32,077 nucleotides of DNA from Deltaproteobacteria bacterium (GTDB lineage Bacteria > Desulfobacterota > Desulfarculia > Adiutricales > Adiutricaceae), in the NCBI GenBank assembly GCA_031264015.1, contig JAISET010000234.1:1-32077 (forward strand), written 5' to 3'. The notes below the pieces were generated by a model that saw nothing but the letters and a program-made list of their open reading frames with translations, had not been told where the DNA came from and searched no databases. Shown piece after piece: positions 6,453 through 18,140 of this stretch. Within the stretch, counting starts at the first letter, position 1; the number at the start of each line of letters is the position of its first letter. Made by a program: the position numbers and the translations under genes.

Positions 6453-8489
6453 ATGTCCATCAAAACCAAGCTATACCTCATTGTCCTTTTTCTGGTCGCC
6501 GTGACCCTGGGCATCAGCTTCGTCGCCTTTCGCACCATCAAAGGCCAGTACGCCCTGATGATCGCCGGCTACGAATCCTCCCTGCACGTCATAGACCTGG
6601 TGTCCATCAATGCCGGTATAGGGGAGGAGGCCATCTCCATACGCGACGTCATCCTGGTCGACGACACGACCTCCAAGCAGAAGGCCTGGGACAGGATGAC
6701 CGCCACCACCAAGGAAATAATCGCCCCCCTGATCGCCTCCATGAAGGTCGAGGGGGCGGAGATCCCGTTGTGGAACGAGCTGACCCAGAGCTGGGAGAAA
6801 CACGTGGCCCTGATGGAGGAGGTCTACAACGACTCCCTGGCCAACTCCGCCAACATCGCCAGGCAGATGAGCGTCCGCTACAGCCTGGAGTACTGGCTGA
6901 GCTACGAGCCCAGCCTGCGCACCCTGTTCGAGGCCGCCTCCAAGTACCACACCGCCGTCGGCGACTCCCTGGGCATCACCGCCCTGGACACCATCCAGTA
7001 CATCCGGGGGCTCCAGCTCTGGGAGAAGATGGCGCTGCTGGCCCAGACCACCGCCGACCGCGACCTCTACATCCAGAAGGCCCGCGACGACATGGCCCAG
7101 GTGACCAGGAACCTCAACGCGATGGAGAGGACCCTGACCAACCCGGTCGTGAGCGACGAGCAGCTGGCCTCCTTCAACGAGGACTTCCGGCAGGCGGGCG
7201 TCGGCAAGATCAAGTTCGCCGACGACGGGACCCTCAGCTACGGGCCCACCAAGTTCACCCTGCCCCCCAACTACGTCAACCCCTTCATGCCGGAGGCCGC
7301 CCGGGTCTACTGGGAGACCATCAAGCCCATGCGGGGCGGCGGCACGGAGATACTGAACCGCATCATGGACCTGGCCACCAAGGACACCAACCTGCGGGCC
7401 TACACCAAGCTCATGGACCAGGGCCAGGCCATGAGGAACCTCGAGCGCAAGAGCATCAACGACCTCATCAGCCTCAGCCAGGAGTACATGGCCTCGGTGG
7501 TCGCGGACTCCATCAAAACCTACGACAACAACATGCTCTTCCTGACCGTCTTCATCGTCGCCGGGCTCCTTTTGGGCGCCACCCTGTCGATCGTCTTCAT
7601 CCAGGCGCTGGTCAAGTCGTTAAAGAAGCTTGACGCCGACCTGATGGCCCGCTCCGACGAGGTCCAGAGGCTGGCCGACCAGCTGGCCTCCAACGCCAAG
7701 GCCCTCTCCGAGGGCGCCTACGAGAGCTCGACGAGCCTCGAGCAGACCAGCTCGGCCCTGGAGGAGCTGGCCTCCATGACCAAGCGCAACGCCGGCAACT
7801 CCGCCGAGGCCGACAAGCTCATGCAGCTGGCCTCGGAGTCGGTCGTCCGGGCCCAGTCGTCCATGGACAACGTCATCGAGGCCATGGCCGAGATCTCCAC
7901 CTCCGGCAACGAGATCGGCAAGATCATCAAGTCGATCGACGACATAGCCTTCCAGACCAACCTCCTGGCCCTGAACGCGGCCGTGGAGGCGGCCAGGGCG
8001 GGCGAGGCCGGGGCGGGCTTCGCCGTGGTGGCCGAGGAGGTGCGCAACCTGGCCAGCCGCTCGGCGGACGCCGCCAAGAACACGGCCAGCCTGATCGAGA
8101 ACACCACCAGGAACATCAACTCCGGCTCCCAGATGGTCAACTTCACCGCCGAGAACTTCAAGGTGGTCACCGACCACTCCAACAAGGTGGCCCAGCTGAT
8201 CGGGGAGGTGGCCGAGGCCTCCAAGGAGCAGTCCCAGGGCATCGGCCAGATCTCCAAGGCCGTCAACGACCTCGACCGCATCACCCAGGCCAACGCCGCC
8301 TCCGCCAAGGAGTCCTCCGGCATCGCCGAGACCCTGGAGGACCAGGAGTCGAAGCTCCTGGACACCGTCAACGAGATCAGCGTCCTGGTCAAGGGCGAGA
8401 AGGCGGCCGGCGACGAGGCCCTCGAACACCGGGGCGGCGCCGAGTCGGCCGACTCCCGCAGGCAGCAGTACCAGGCCCTGCCGGAGTAG
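6453..8489 (+). CDS. Methyl-accepting chemotaxis protein (transmembrane)
   Basis: A 678-residue receptor that would signal ligand state to CheA/CheW. Membrane helix 1 spans about 7-27 and helix 2 about 361-384, enclosing a roughly 330-residue, mostly helical periplasmic domain. This resembles helical-bundle sensor domains in general character, but its ligand is unknown. The cytoplasmic part contains the highly conserved hairpin tip around 487-535 ([20 protein letters not shown], then [21 protein letters not shown]). No clear HAMP linker follows helix 2, and the C-terminus lacks an obvious CheR/CheB-binding pentapeptide. The ATG at 6453 has GGAG 6 bases upstream and directly precedes a typical charged start plus membrane helix. 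The frame stays open upstream to 6258, but that part is Arg/Pro/Gly-rich and non-protein-like. No che genes are in the window. Confidence 0.93.
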
Positions 8490-12074: not shown

Positions 12075-12195
12075 CGGCCAGTCGACCGGCGCCCTTTTCC
12101 GATCCCACGCGTCCCTTTTCCGAACCGGGGAAAAGACGGTGACCACCCCCCGCCCGCGGCGGGGAGACCAGACGGCAGCAGGAAGCGGCAGACAG

Positions 12196-12963
12196 ATGAA
12201 TCTTAAATCAGTCTTCTCCAAAGGGTACGCCATCGACAAGGACAACGACAAGACCCCCGCCTACCTGCAGCTGTCGCAGATTATCAAAAAAATAATCGCC
12301 AGCGGCGACTTTCCGCCGGGGGCCAAGCTCCCCTCGGAGGCCGCCATCGGCAGGCACTACGGCCTGTCGACCATGACGGTCAGACAGGCCATCGGCCTGG
12401 TGGCCGAGCAGGGCCTTTTGCGCCGCATCCAGGGCAGCGGGACCTACGTGGCCACCCCGGCCTGGACCCAGGCGAGCTTCACCTGGGACGGCCTGATGGA
12501 GCTTTTGGCCGACCGCAAAAACAGCTCGCTGACCATCATCAAGGCGGGCATCATGGACGCCAGCCCCAAGGTGGCGGAGAGCCTCTGCCTGCACAAGGGC
12601 GGCAAGATCATCCACCTCATCCGCCTGGTCAGCCACCGCGACAAGCCCTTTTTGTTGAACGAGGCGCTCTTAAAGTTCGACCCCCAGGCGCCGATCGTCG
12701 AGGCGGAGCTGGAGCTCTCGTCCCTGTCCGGGCTCTTCACCGGGGAGGGCAGCCACTACATTAAAAAAACGTTTCTGAGGGTCGAGCCCGCCACCCTCAA
12801 CCAGTCCGAGTCCTTCCAGCTGCGCACCGGCGAGGGCGAGACGGCCTTCAAGATCAACTACGTCTTCTACGACTACAAGGACCAGCCCCTGGGCTCCGGG
12901 TGGTTTCTGACGCCCAAGAAATACATCACGCTGACCACCAAGATCGGCCTTTGGGACCAATAA
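12196..12963 (+). CDS. GntR-family transcriptional regulator, HutC/UTRA type
   Basis: A 255-residue DNA-binding regulator. The winged helix-turn-helix spans about 20-88: the pattern PAYLQLSQIIKKIIASGDFPPG, then KLPSEAAIGRHYGLSTMTVRQAI, then the wing QGLLRRIQGSGTYV is classic GntR. Residues 95-252 form a UTRA-like effector domain ending in SGWFLTPKKYITLTTKIG. The effector cannot be read from sequence. The start at 12196 (MNLKSVF) is preferred on protein content; AGGA lies 12 bases upstream, rather far, and a GTG at 12139 preceded by GGGGAAAAG is an alternative adding 19 residues. The corrinoid-protein gene follows 156 bases downstream on the same strand, so it is the obvious candidate target, together with autoregulation. 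Confidence 0.9.
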   Translation: MNLKSVFSKGYAIDKDNDKTPAYLQLSQIIKKIIASGDFPPGAKLPSEAAIGRHYGLSTMTVRQAIGLVAEQGLLRRIQGSGTYVATPAWTQASFTWDGLMELLADRKNSSLTIIKAGIMDASPKVAESLCLHKGGKIIHLIRLVSHRDKPFLLNEALLKFDPQAPIVEAELELSSLSGLFTGEGSHYIKKTFLRVEPATLNQSESFQLRTGEGETAFKINYVFYDYKDQPLGSGWFLTPKKYITLTTKIGLWDQ

Positions 12964-13019
12964 AAAGTTTTTTTCGCCCGCCCTTTCTTTTTCAGCCGCC
13001 GCCGACGCCCGGGGTCCGC

Positions 13020-13070
13020 GTCCGGGACGTCGAGTCCGGGACGTCGCTTCCCGGACGCCGGCGTCCCGGA
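13020..13070. promoter_or_regulatory. Repeat and palindrome cluster between gntR and the corrinoid gene
   Basis: GTCCGGGACGTCG occurs twice with a 14-base period (13020 and 13034). It is followed by the perfect 14-bp palindrome GGACGCCGGCGTCC (13053-13066) and the inverted copy CGTCCCGGA. The element could fold into a long RNA hairpin or act as an operator for the adjacent GntR regulator. Function is inferred from position only. Confidence 0.4.
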
Positions 13071-13119
13071 TGTCCGCGCCGCGCGCCGGCGCCCCCGCCC
13101 CGGGCGGAGTTCTTAAACT

Positions 13120-13800
13120 ATGACCAACTACAAGCCATCGCTGGAGCGCCTCGCCCAGCTGATCACCCTGCTCAAGGACTCGGCCTGCAGGCGGATGACC
13201 AAGCAGCTTCTGGGCATGGGGACCGACCCCACCCAGATCATGGAGGTCTGCCAGAAGTCCCTCATCGACATCGGCCGCAAGTACGAGACGGGGGAATATT
13301 TCATCGCCGGGCTCATCATGGCGGGCGACATCATGAAGCAGATCATCGACATGGTCCTGCCCCACGTCAAGACCCCCCACAAACCCTACGGCCGGGGCCG
13401 GATTTTGATCGGCACGGTGGCGGGCGACATCCACGACCTGGGCAAGAACATGGCCGGGGCCATGCTGACCACCTACGGCTACGAGGTCAGGGACCTGGGC
13501 GTGGACGTGCGCCCGGAGAACTTCCTGGAGGAGGCGGCCGGCTTCAAGCCCCACCTGGTGGGCCTGTCCTCCCTGATGACCTCCGGGCACAGCGCCCTGA
13601 CCCAGACCATCAGCCTGATCAGACAAAACGTCCGGCCGGCCGACCGGCCCGTCATCTTCATCTCCGGGGCCATGATCATCGAGAGCGTCAAAAAGCGCTC
13701 CGGGGCCGACTTCATCGTCAACAACGTGGCCGAGACGGTCTTTCTCTGCGAGCGCGTCATGATGGAGATCCAGTCCAAAGAAATCAAGCCCGACGAGTAG
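13120..13800 (+). CDS. Corrinoid (cobalamin)-binding protein, MtbC/MtaC-like
   Basis: A 226-residue two-domain protein. A helical cap domain spans about 5-90, with the typical GRKYETGEYFIAGLIMAGDIM. A Rossmann-like B12-binding domain spans about 92-215 with the D-x-H-x-x-G motif in GDIHDLGKN (D103, H105 as the lower cobalt ligand, G108) and SSLMTS (150-155). Such proteins shuttle a methyl group from methanol, methylamine or methoxy compounds to a folate or thiol acceptor, with two partner methyltransferases. No methyltransferase or reactivase is in the window, so the substrate is unknown. The usual late GG motif is altered to SGAM (182-185), and the following segment reads ADFIVNNVAETV, which deviates from typical corrinoid shuttles. 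GGAG lies about 10 bases before the ATG. Confidence 0.88.
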   Translation: MTNYKPSLERLAQLITLLKDSACRRMTKQLLGMGTDPTQIMEVCQKSLIDIGRKYETGEYFIAGLIMAGDIMKQIIDMVLPHVKTPHKPYGRGRILIGTVAGDIHDLGKNMAGAMLTTYGYEVRDLGVDVRPENFLEEAAGFKPHLVGLSSLMTSGHSALTQTISLIRQNVRPADRPVIFISGAMIIESVKKRSGADFIVNNVAETVFLCERVMMEIQSKEIKPDE

Positions 13801-14294: not shown

Positions 14295-16262
14295 TCAGTC
14301 GGTCAGGAGCCTCCTCAGGGTGGCCACGTCCGGGGGGGTGTCCCCGCTGTAGAAGCGCACCACCATCAGGCCCGCTTTCTTGAGGATGTAGTCCCTGGCC
14401 CTGTCCTTGTTGGTGGGGGTCTGGGACTCGTCCACCACCTCGACCACGGCCTTGATGTTCAGCTTGACGTCGCAGATGACGAAGCTCAGCGTCGTGTTGG
14501 TCAGGACGTTCTCGGCGACCTTGAGGTGGTCGGCGTTGCGGGAGATGGCCGTCACCGCCGCCCGGCTGGTCACCTTGGGGAAGATGAGAAACTGGGTGAA
14601 GGCGGCCCTCAGAAGCTTGTAGTAGGTGATCTCCAGCGAGTTTAAGAAAATGTTGCGCTGGTAGGTGACGTCGAGCTCCTGGACCGTGATGGCGGCGGCG
14701 CCCTGGGTCTGCCCGGGGGCCGGGGTCTCCACGGCGGCCTGCTTCATGACCCTGGGCAGCTGGGTCTGGTCGATCTGGATGGGCGTGCTCATCTGGGTCT
14801 GGCTGGCCTTGAGGACCCCGCCCCGGCCCTCGAGGATGGACATGGGCCTGGCCTGGGGGAGCGTCAGGGCGGCGGCCAAAGGCGCGGCGACCGGCGCGGC
14901 GACGGGGGCCTCCGGGGGCGGGAGCTCGTCCTCCGACTCCCCGGCGTCGGGCGCGCGGGAGCCGCCCGAGGGGGACGGCTGCACCAGGGTCTGCCTGGGG
15001 TGCTCGGGGGGCCTGGGCGCCTCGAACTCGGAGGCGGCCTCCACGTCCAGAACGGGCTCCAGACCGTCCTCCTCGAAGTCGGCGCCCCGGCCGTCGCCGT
15101 TGCCGCGCGCCTCCGGGGAGGGGGCGTCCTCGAGGCCGCCCACGGCCACGGCGGTGGAGTACGGGCCCGCCTCCTCGACCACGGCGGTCAGGGTGTGGAT
15201 CTCGACGGCCGGCTCGACGGCCGGCAGTTCGGCCGGCTCGACGGACTCGACGGTCTCGTTAAAATAGCGGGCCCCCTCCGGGGGGTCGGGAGCCTCGCAC
15301 ATCTGCGACTGCCCGAAGGGCGGGTCCTCCCCGATGACCCGGGACTGCCCGTAGGAGGGGTCCCGGTCGTAGTCGGGCCCGGGGGCCGGGACGGGCATCT
15401 GGGTCCCGCTGGCGATGCGCACGCCCGCGGAGGCGGCCGGCTGCTCGACGGCCTCCAAAACCTGGGGGGCGACGGGGGTGGAGCTGGGCCCGGTCTCGGG
15501 GGCGAGGAGGCCGACGGAGGGCTCCTGACGAACGAGCTCGTCACGGGGGGACGCCTGCCCCGGGCGCTCGAAGACGGGCGTCTCGGGCTCCCTGCGGGCG
15601 GGGGGGGCGGGGACGGGCGAGACGACAAGCCCGGCGGCCTTGGCCAGATCGGCTGCCGTTGGCTCGGGCCGGACCGTCTCGACAGTCTCGACGGACGCCG
15701 GCCGGGGCTGGACGGGCGGGGGGACGGCGACGGCGGGCTGGGGCGGGGCGGGGCGGGGCGCCTCCTGGCCCGGGGCCAGAATGAGGTTGTTCTGGGCGGC
15801 CTTGAGGGTGACGGCCCTGAAGGCGCCGGAGGCCGGGGCGGGCGCCGGGTCCGGGGCGGGCGCCGGGTCCGGGAACGCCGGGGGCGGGACGGGGGCGGGC
15901 TCGAAGGCCGCCGGTCCCTGGTCCTGCCCGGCCTGAGTCTCCGGCGCGGGCGTGGGCAGCTTGCCCTTGTGCTTGGCGGCCAGCCTGGCCGCCGCCCCGG
16001 CCTTCTTCTGGGCCTCCTTGGCCGCCTTGGCCGCCAGCTTGGCCATCTTCTTGTCGACCGCGGCCTCGGCGGCCTCCGCCTTGTCGGGCTTGGGCGCCTT
16101 GGGCTGCTTCGGGGGCTTGGGCTCCTTCTTTTTGGAGGGCCCGCCCTTGACGCGACTGAAAACCAGATAGATAAAAACAAGCAGAAAGGCCGCGCCGCCC
16201 AGATAATAACTGCTGGAGGGGTTGCCGAACATCTCGCTGAACATGTTTAAAATGCCGTCCAT
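14295..16262 (-). CDS. Membrane-anchored DUF2726 protein with long disordered linker
   Basis: A 655-residue protein in three parts. One membrane helix (about 20-37) is followed by a Lys/Ala-rich, probably helical charged stretch (40-100). Residues 105-520 are a Pro/Ala/Glu-rich linker, expected to be disordered. The C-terminal 130 residues (525-655) match DUF2726, a restriction-endonuclease-like fold: conserved NIFLNSLEITYYKLLRAA, then SFVICDVKLNIKAVVEVVDES and RDYILKKAGLMVVRF. The first acidic residue usual before 'FV' is Ser here (LSFVICD), so catalytic activity is doubtful. The linker carries a recurring x-Q-[ST]-[QRL]-[MLV] motif (305-309, 317-321, 423-427, 487-491, 498-502). The start at 16262 is chosen because it opens directly into the membrane helix; the ribosome site is weak, and the frame upstream is Arg/Gly-rich. 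Function is unknown. Confidence 0.8.
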   Translation of the reverse strand: MDGILNMFSEMFGNPSSSYYLGGAAFLLVFIYLVFSRVKGGPSKKKEPKPPKQPKAPKPDKAEAAEAAVDKKMAKLAAKAAKEAQKKAGAAARLAAKHKGKLPTPAPETQAGQDQGPAAFEPAPVPPPAFPDPAPAPDPAPAPASGAFRAVTLKAAQNNLILAPGQEAPRPAPPQPAVAVPPPVQPRPASVETVETVRPEPTAADLAKAAGLVVSPVPAPPARREPETPVFERPGQASPRDELVRQEPSVGLLAPETGPSSTPVAPQVLEAVEQPAASAGVRIASGTQMPVPAPGPDYDRDPSYGQSRVIGEDPPFGQSQMCEAPDPPEGARYFNETVESVEPAELPAVEPAVEIHTLTAVVEEAGPYSTAVAVGGLEDAPSPEARGNGDGRGADFEEDGLEPVLDVEAASEFEAPRPPEHPRQTLVQPSPSGGSRAPDAGESEDELPPPEAPVAAPVAAPLAAALTLPQARPMSILEGRGGVLKASQTQMSTPIQIDQTQLPRVMKQAAVETPAPGQTQGAAAITVQELDVTYQRNIFLNSLEITYYKLLRAAFTQFLIFPKVTSRAAVTAISRNADHLKVAENVLTNTTLSFVICDVKLNIKAVVEVVDESQTPTNKDRARDYILKKAGLMVVRFYSGDTPPDVATLRRLLTD

Positions 16263-16656
16263 GGAACACCCGTCGCCCAAATAATCACCGGCGAAAGCGG
16301 CCTTATTTTTTTCAGCAAAACAAACAGGAGGATAAAATGACCCGGAGGCCGCGGCGAGAAAAAAAAATCGCCCGGCCGCCGCCCGAATAATCGCCCGGCC
16401 GCCGCCTGTGACGTCACCCGGGACGCCGTCCCGAAGGGAGCCGGCGCGCCAGGGACGAGCCCGACCGACCGGCCGGCCGTTCGCCGTTCGGCCCGATCGG
16501 TCGCGCCGGGCGCGCCCGCTAAAAAAAACCCCGGGATCGGGAGGCCGCCGGACCGGACAAAAATTCAACGGGACGCCGCCGGCCGACAAAGGCGGCGGGC
16601 CGGTCGGAGGAAGCTTTTTGTCTTTTTTCCGAGCGCGCCCGCGGCCTGGCCGCGCC
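16263..16656. other. Gap between DUF2726 and zinc-ribbon genes
   Basis: GC-rich DNA with A-runs at 16359-16367 and 16520-16528. It contains a direct repeat of AATCGCCCGGCCGCCGCC. No gene and no confident promoter for DUF2726 were found. Confidence 0.45.
16366..16406. repeat. 23-bp period direct repeat, 2 copies
   Basis: AATCGCCCGGCCGCCGCC occurs at 16366 and 16389, with the 5-base filler CGAAT between. Confidence 0.8.
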
Positions 16657-16899
16657 TCACTTGATGGTGACGTCCAGGATTTTCGGGACGGCCAGATGGG
16701 GGGTCCCGGCCTCGTTGACGGCCACCACCGGCTGCCCGTCGGTGCTGATGCCCACCTGGGTCAGGCAGCCGCATTTTTTGCACCAGCGGTGCTCGAGTTT
16801 GACGATGTCCCCGTTCTGCACGGCGTCCTCGGCAACAACCATCCAGGAGTGCTGCTTGCCGTCGATGCAGGTGCTTATCAATGGTTTCTGCAGGGCCAT
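16657..16899 (-). CDS. Small zinc-ribbon-like protein (80 aa)
   Basis: An 80-residue protein of unknown function. Candidate metal ligands are C11 and H17 in the N-terminal part and H37, C40, C43 and C45 in HRWCKKCGCLTQV, a knuckle typical of single zinc ribbons. The rest is beta-rich and ends LAVPKILDVTIK. It has no membrane helix or signal peptide. Unlike neighbouring GC-rich open frames, its composition is protein-like and balanced. AAGGA lies 7 bases before the ATG. A perfect consensus promoter 220-245 bases upstream points at it, and the leader contains a hairpin. I do not recognise the family. Confidence 0.75.
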   Translation of the reverse strand: MALQKPLISTCIDGKQHSWMVVAEDAVQNGDIVKLEHRWCKKCGCLTQVGISTDGQPVVAVNEAGTPHLAVPKILDVTIK

Positions 16900-17146: not shown

Positions 17147-17755
17147 CGGCCGAAAATTTAAAATATGGCGAAAGCGTCAAAATTTTACAAAGACTTCGTC
17201 TAAAACCTCCATTTTTGGCAGGATAGTTGCTTTCAAGCGGCAGGCTGGCGTCAAGTCGTCTCTCGACCACAATATATAGCATGTTAAGTAAATAAGTTAA
17301 AATATTTAGATTTCAGCAGTTTAAAAGATTTTTTCAGACAGTTTCTTAGAATACTCAAGTTGGTCACAGGCTGCGAGGATACTTGTCAGACTAAATCAAT
17401 GAGACATTCGGCGCGGAGCCCCCCGGCCGGGGGGGCGGGCCGACAGGAACGGGCCTGTCGAGCCGGCCGGAGGCTCGAACGATGAAAACCATCCGATTCA
17501 CAACGCCCGGCCTTCGCATGCGGCCCTCGCCGTCATGAACGGACAGGGGCGTTGACGGTTCCGCTTCCGAGCCCTGGCCCGAAAACCACAATGACGCTTT
17601 CGCCCTAATTTAAAACAGCCGGCATGGGTCCCCTCAAAAACGACCGGCCGCGGCCATTGGCGGGACTATTCCGACAAGATCACCAAACTTATTGGCTTTC
17701 AAGGCATCTTTGACTCTACCATAATCAATAAAACTAATCAATGTCCATAATTATA

Positions 17756-17785
17756 GTGACATATTTCAGGCCAATTAATTATAAT
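17756..17785 (+). promoter_or_regulatory. Strong rightward promoter candidate
   Basis: GTGACA (17756-17761) and TATAAT (17780-17785) with an 18-base spacer match 11 of 12 consensus positions. It could drive trmFO through a 400-base leader, or a separate non-coding RNA. A back-to-back TATAAT on the minus strand (17755-17750) suggests divergent transcription. Confidence 0.5.
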
Positions 17786-17955
17786 CGCACACAATTAGCT
17801 TATTGGCGACATAACTACGTTTGTTTATTTCTTAATTTATCGCTTGTCTAGAAAAATTATTACCCCCAGCAGGCTATGTCCCGGACGAATCGCCGGGAAA
17901 AGAGGCGTTTTTTTTCGGCGGGGAGACGTTTTTTCGCCTCTTTTTTCCTCCCCCG

Positions 17956-18015
17956 CCCCTCTTCCTTTTCCCCATCCCCTCTTCCTTCTCCCAATCCCCT
18001 CTTCCTTTTCCCCAT
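17956..18015. repeat. 20-bp pyrimidine tandem repeat, 3 copies
   Basis: CCCCTCTTCCTTTTCCCCAT is repeated three times; the middle copy has two changes. The strand is almost pure C and T, so triplex-type structures are possible. Confidence 0.9.
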
Positions 18016-18140
18016 CCCCCCGCTTTTTCCCCGCCGTCGCCGCCGCCGCCCCAGGGGACTCCCCGCGGCCGCGAGCCGGGGGCGGGGGCGGGTTTGCGGC
18101 CGGCGGCCGATAATTTCAACCGGGCGGGGGATTTTTATTG

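Follow-up and report, generated by a model that had tools for sequence, protein, structure and literature searches.

This locus raises the question of what a nuclease-like domain does when it is held to a membrane at the end of a long disordered linker, and whether it still cuts. In the window (the whole stretch of DNA that was analysed, 32,077 nucleotides from a Deltaproteobacteria bacterium), an uninterrupted 655-residue frame at 14295-16262 on the minus strand, with its ATG at 16262, encodes such a protein (Table 1). The gene is real, and each part that a first-pass annotation of the sequence had named, that is, a membrane helix, a charged helix, a long disordered linker and a DUF2726 domain, was recovered when reading frame, Pfam, hydropathy and AlphaFold2 were considered together.

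Architecture and distribution of the protein

Table 1. Features of the gene and its product, with positions in the window.
Feature	Position	Strand	Basis or occurrence
Whole gene, 655 residues, stop included	14295..16262	-	23 long-form relatives
N-terminal transmembrane helix, residues 15-39	16146..16220	-	AlphaFold2; hydropathy and flanking charge, 22 proteins with N-terminus
Basic K/A-rich helix, residues 65-97	15972..16070	-	AlphaFold2
Disordered Pro/Ala-rich linker, residues 98-525	14688..15971	-	Mostly low pLDDT
Floating conserved motif FRAVTLKAA, residues 148-156	15795..15821	-	23/23 proteins having the region
GQSRV, residues 305-309 (first-pass motif)	15336..15350	-	Private to the window protein
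GQSQM, residues 317-321 (first-pass motif)	15300..15314	-	Private to the window protein
RQTLV, residues 423-427 (first-pass motif)	14982..14996	-	Genus-only; QTLV in L031, L033, L035
Conserved tandem TQ motif SQTQMSTPIQIDQTQLP, residues 487-503	14754..14804	-	Alignment, 24 members
DUF2726 domain, residues 526-655 (Pfam match 540-637)	14298..14687	-	Pfam, AlphaFold2
S593, replaces Asp of ordinary DUF2726	14484..14486	-	Alignment
E608 to V610	14433..14441	-	Alignment

The full-length AlphaFold2 model consists of helices at residues 2-12, 15-39 and 65-97, a mostly low-confidence linker and then the domain. Proline makes up 19.5% and alanine 16.4% of residues 101-484. In all 22 proteins that retain the N-terminus, the membrane helix is preceded by 0-1 lysine or arginine residues and followed by 2-8 of them in the next 15 residues; by the positive-inside rule, these charge flanks predict an N-out, C-in topology, which would place the domain in the cytoplasm. 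The first-pass annotation had regarded a membrane helix as unexpected on a DUF2726 protein. This view was not borne out: a membrane helix precedes the domain in 6 of the 13 ordinary members of the DUF2726 sequence family that were examined.

The long form has a narrow distribution. Among 60 related genomes, that of the window included, 26 had a match. Twenty-four long-form proteins, again counting the window's, all come from one taxonomic family of bacterial metagenome-assembled genomes (f1), and the remaining two matching genomes have short, ordinary DUF2726 proteins. By profile search, 24 of the 37 f1 genomes carry the long form and one more (G032) a short form; this count treats G001, G030 and G013 as lacking the gene although their sequence stops 29, 565 and 956 bases beyond typA. 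Genus g6 has the long form in none of its seven genomes. When 395 genomes sampled from the phylum were searched, five matched, all five from f1, and none outside f1 had the long form. Across the genomes searched, a single bacterial family accounts for every long form. The 23 loci returned by a contig scan (Deltaproteobacteria MAGs) are the same 23 relatives and add no further evidence. DUF2726 itself was found in at least 10 of 297 genomes, which is a lower bound because a PF10881 search of the window's own genome gave no match despite its containing a 30.7-bit protein. At L055, from a g6 genome, two sequence-identical short ordinary DUF2726 copies (7530-8051 and 17536-18057) lie about 10 kb apart. 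We take f1 to be the Adiutricaceae, a family of termite-gut bacteria. The available portion of one study places Adiutricaceae in termite guts and does not name these records there (PMC9137090).

Loss of signature residues in the DUF2726 head

Pfam matches DUF2726 (PF10881) with an E-value of 3e-7 and a score of 30.7 bits, above the cut-off of 24.7, and all 24 long-form members match the profile at E 0.01 or better. When residues 467-655 were modelled separately with AlphaFold2, the domain was folded, with blocks mostly at pLDDT 80-94, a weaker first helix (pLDDT 51-57) and low confidence in the tandem motif. A VIA-align search ranked I-Bth0305I first, through its catalytic domain (Z 5.8, rmsd 2.8, 76 aligned), and NGO0050 next (Z 5.3, rmsd 2.6, 74 aligned). 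Both scores lie in the range that the tool calls common and below the level that it treats as meaningful (Z under 8). The best rows contain many nucleases, but two chains of mitoribosomes also appear among them, with Z values of 5.2 and 5.1. Foldseek searches of the PDB and of viral structures produced no match at E 0.001; DUF2726 and VRR-NUC proteins are among the rows from BFVD, none of them at that level, and phmmer against the sequences of solved structures gave nothing meaningful. With VIA-align scores in the common range, the fold assignment draws mainly on the Pfam match.

The 24 long-form members were aligned with 13 DUF2726 domains of the ordinary kind, of which 11 come from the survey of 297 genomes and two from L054 and L055. 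The aspartate that stands before F/Y in ordinary members is absent from the long form: column 593 is S in 24/24 long-form proteins and D in 13/13 ordinary ones. Column 610 is V, I or L in all 24 as against D or N in all 13, and the histidine at column 614, present in 12 of the 13 (Y in the other), is found in only one of the 24, leaving the long-form family without the E-x-[DN] and following His of ordinary members. Other acidic positions are kept. Column 608 is E in 23 of 24 (M in L049) and in every ordinary domain; column 544 is E in all 24, compared with 12 E and one Q; column 620 is D or E in all 24 and D in 12 of 13; and D598 is invariant in the long form. In ordinary DUF2726 proteins the D, E, D/N, H/Y signature is intact and the linker is short, whereas the long form has lost the signature and has a long linker with conserved peptides.

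In PD-(D/E)XK enzymes, the metal is held by an Asp and a Glu. Loss of the Asp from the head would take away a metal-holding residue, and no or weak cleavage is predicted as a result. With E544, E608 and D620 kept and D598 invariant, a rearranged metal site is conceivable, in which D598 might substitute. The first-pass annotation had pointed to a serine at the first acidic position before FV and suggested that the domain may bind rather than cut. The serine is S593, and the alignment with the 13 ordinary domains lends support to the suggestion: the catalytic signature is incomplete, three signature residues are replaced family-wide, and the domain is highly conserved. Judged from its sequence, the head is probably a catalytically dead-looking pseudonuclease that binds rather than cuts.

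What such a head might bind is suggested by three lines of argument. The first is the ancestry of the domain. The second concerns its twelve near-invariant basic columns, several of which are rarely basic in ordinary DUF2726 (K549 in 1/13, K600 in 1/13, K604 in 0/13, K628 in 4/13 and K629 in 3/13), although this sets 24 proteins of one family against 13 diverse ones and shared ancestry may explain the pattern. The third is a precedent: the available portion of a report on FASTKD4 describes a Vsr-like RAP domain with a Vsr/I-Bth0305I-like fold that binds RNA without cleavage (PMC11879112), and I-Bth0305I is the structure that heads the VIA-align rows here, at the same sub-meaningful Z of 5.8. 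FASTKD4 differs, as far as that portion describes it, in being mitochondrial, in having FAST domains and no membrane arm, and in keeping D523, where the long form, whose RNA binding is putative, has Ser. These points favour a nucleic acid ligand, but the idea is weakened by an equal number of conserved acidic columns (12) and by a net charge of only +2 to +4 for the domain in the four proteins checked.

Conserved peptides in the linker

The first-pass annotation had read the linker as a series of repeated Q-[ST]-Q motifs (residues 305-309, 317-321, 423-427, 487-491 and 498-502, with related GTQM at 286-289 and GQTQ at 517-520) that look like docking sites for one partner. The motifs are all present at these positions, and five of them in one linker exceeds what composition predicts (shuffle mean 0.07, reached in 0 of 10,000 shuffles; three against a mean of 0.04 with the tandem excluded), an excess that must be read in light of the pattern having been defined after the sequence had been seen. 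Conservation in orthologues separates them. The motifs at 487-491 and 498-502 form a tandem that is conserved family-wide, with T489, I495, T500 and Q501 invariant in 24/24 members and the T489-T500 spacing fixed at 11 residues. The other three fail this comparison: those at 305-309 and 317-321 have no counterpart in any relative, and that at 423-427 does not extend beyond the genus. Outside the tandem, the pattern occurs six times in 22 proteins, three times in the window protein and once each in L033, L035 and L048, a count that omits L031 and L044 (both cut by contig ends) and hence the QTLV of L031; the QSLV of L048 sits elsewhere in the protein. GTQM at 286 belongs to a stretch of the GVRIASG type, which was recovered by regular expression from 6 of the 24 proteins. 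A family-wide series of five or more equivalent docking sites is therefore not what the linker contains.

The tandem is conserved to nearly the same degree as the domain. Mean pairwise identity, taken over the 22 proteins other than the contig-truncated L031 and L044, is 0.68 for the domain and 0.67 for residues 485-503, compared with 0.30 for residues 101-470, 0.31 for the membrane helix region and 0.33 for the basic helix region. The tandem pattern occurs once in the window's own genome, and none of its 17 matches in viral contigs codes for a relative. A better motif, FRAVxLKA, went unnoticed in the first pass. In a relaxed form it is present in all 23 proteins that have the region (L031 lacks it, being cut by a contig end), against 0.0025 expected by shuffling, although the relaxed pattern was also set after the proteins had been viewed and a stricter one caught 19 of 24. 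Its distance ahead of the domain varies from 82 to 428 residues.

Of the docking sites first listed, then, only the tandem TQ motif is retained, and it and FRAVxLKA are putative docking or self-docking sites. No docking of these arm motifs on the domain was seen in the full-length AlphaFold2 model, because most of the linker, FRAV included, is low-confidence coil (pLDDT under 50 at residues 144-168, and at or just above 50 at residues 494-512).

Gene neighbourhood and possible roles of a tethered head

The genomic context of the gene is conserved. In 19 of 23 relatives a typA/bipA gene, whole or partial, precedes it in the same orientation. In the remaining four, the upstream sequence amounts to 0 bases in L031, 13 in L037, 0 in L044 and 1,500 in L048, where it contains no typA; the genome of L048 (G019) has typA near the end of another contig. 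Five g6 genomes have typA, followed by 2.5 to 8.8 kb without a match to the DUF2726 domain of the gene. An 80-residue gene is found upstream in 17 of 24 loci. On the downstream side, a DegP-like protease gene recurs in 11 of 24 loci and a DUF1844 gene in 12 of 24; in five of the twelve loci without the DUF1844 gene, the downstream sequence is shorter than 5 kb. The window is included in each count. Terminator-like stems, one just 3' of the gene and more in the interval that separates it from the 80-residue gene, mean that a transcript shared by the two is not indicated in the window.

The window also has features of its own. typA, which in relatives stands between the 80-residue gene and the DUF2726 gene, is missing (16262-16899), and a close copy was not found in the 87%-complete assembly, where the best match has 33% identity. 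The 80-residue protein (16657-16899, minus strand) has a WCKKCGC cluster, is conserved near typA in most relatives and gave no hit to Pfam at E 0.01. The interval between the DUF2726 gene and the DUF1844/DegP pair holds a GntR/UTRA regulator and a corrinoid-binding protein (12139-13800, plus strand).

Several roles can be envisaged for a protein of this kind. It could still be an active nuclease, with a metal site rebuilt around E544, E608, D598 and D620, that acts on incoming or membrane-bound nucleic acid. The near-complete conservation of these four positions is consistent with this possibility, which we nonetheless consider unlikely given the Ser at 593 and the V/I/L at 610 in every member, and given that L049 is without E608 too. 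Alternatively, Ser/Thr kinases that bear FHA domains could phosphorylate the two threonines of the tandem, with an FHA domain as the reader, in line with the phosphopeptide or adaptor partner that the first-pass annotation had proposed. T489 and T500 are invariant and their spacing is fixed, and the window's own genome has four FHA matches, two of them in kinase-like frames. However, FHA domains occur in 34 of 37 f1 genomes regardless of the gene, including five of the seven from gene-less g6, whereas G009 (61% complete) has the gene and no FHA match; nor is the QTQ[MLI]P pattern enriched in DNA (134 matches versus 128 for the control). Neither co-occurrence nor pattern supports an FHA partner, and we regard phospho-regulation as rather improbable. 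The FHA domains of the window's genome lie at L061 246-2138 and 7610-9304, L062 4987-6513 and L060 6736-8670, and by eye their partner domains are Ser/Thr kinase-like (two), HD-type and a sigma-54-type activator.

The order of parts also resembles that of ZipA, for which the available portion of one paper gives a helix at 7-28, a charged stretch at 29-85, a P/Q-rich region at 86-185 and a head at 186-328 (PMC6904479); an N-out helix, a charged stretch, a Pro-rich disordered linker and a cytoplasmic head follow one another in both. A division or cytoskeleton tether whose head catches a polymer is nevertheless very unlikely. The head here is of another family, the Pfam scan of the window protein returned DUF2726 and a sub-threshold DUF559 with no ZipA domain, the identified neighbours (typA, DUF1844 and DegP) include no division genes, and nothing was found to link the protein to FtsZ. 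We give least credence to a phage-defence or conflict nuclease, a role brought to mind by the fusion of DUF2726 to an AbiJ N-terminal domain (reported in the available portion of PMC3710099). The whole protein has no PADLOC match and its last 174 residues no PHROG match, its place beside housekeeping genes is conserved, and the signature residues are lost. An NCBIfam scan gave nothing for the window protein.

On balance, and with modest confidence, we favour a membrane-tethered pseudonuclease scaffold, in which a ligand is bound without being cut and the arm carries two docking peptides. The architecture, the loss of signature residues, the conservation of the motifs and, among the genomes searched, the confinement to one family are established by computation. 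In the model, the N-terminal helix would anchor the protein in the inner membrane and lead the chain into the cytoplasm, and the basic helix would follow at the membrane surface. A long arm of about 430 disordered residues would then end in a C-terminal DUF2726 domain that would have kept its fold and lost the metal Asp and two further signature residues; because these residues are lost, we propose that the ligand is held, not cleaved. FRAVxLKA, together with the tandem TQ motif just ahead of the domain, would serve for docking or self-docking. We infer the absence of cutting, and the ligand near the membrane may be a nucleic acid (DNA or RNA). A more specific version, in which an inactivated Vsr-like fold tethers RNA, ribosomes or the chromosome near the inner membrane and the arm peptides set when and with whom, is speculative and doubtful; the hint of ribosomes comes from the position of the gene after that of the ribosomal GTPase TypA.

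In summary, the protein belongs to a known domain family, of which it is a variant specific to one lineage. Among the publications retrieved for DUF2726, judged by title, none points to an architecture of membrane helix, long linker and DUF2726. If the scaffold model is correct, it would show a nuclease fold converted into a binding head in bacteria, on a tether that carries recognisable docking peptides and is specific to one family of presumed termite-gut bacteria. Two short conserved peptides amid a drifting linker make the search for a partner directly testable.
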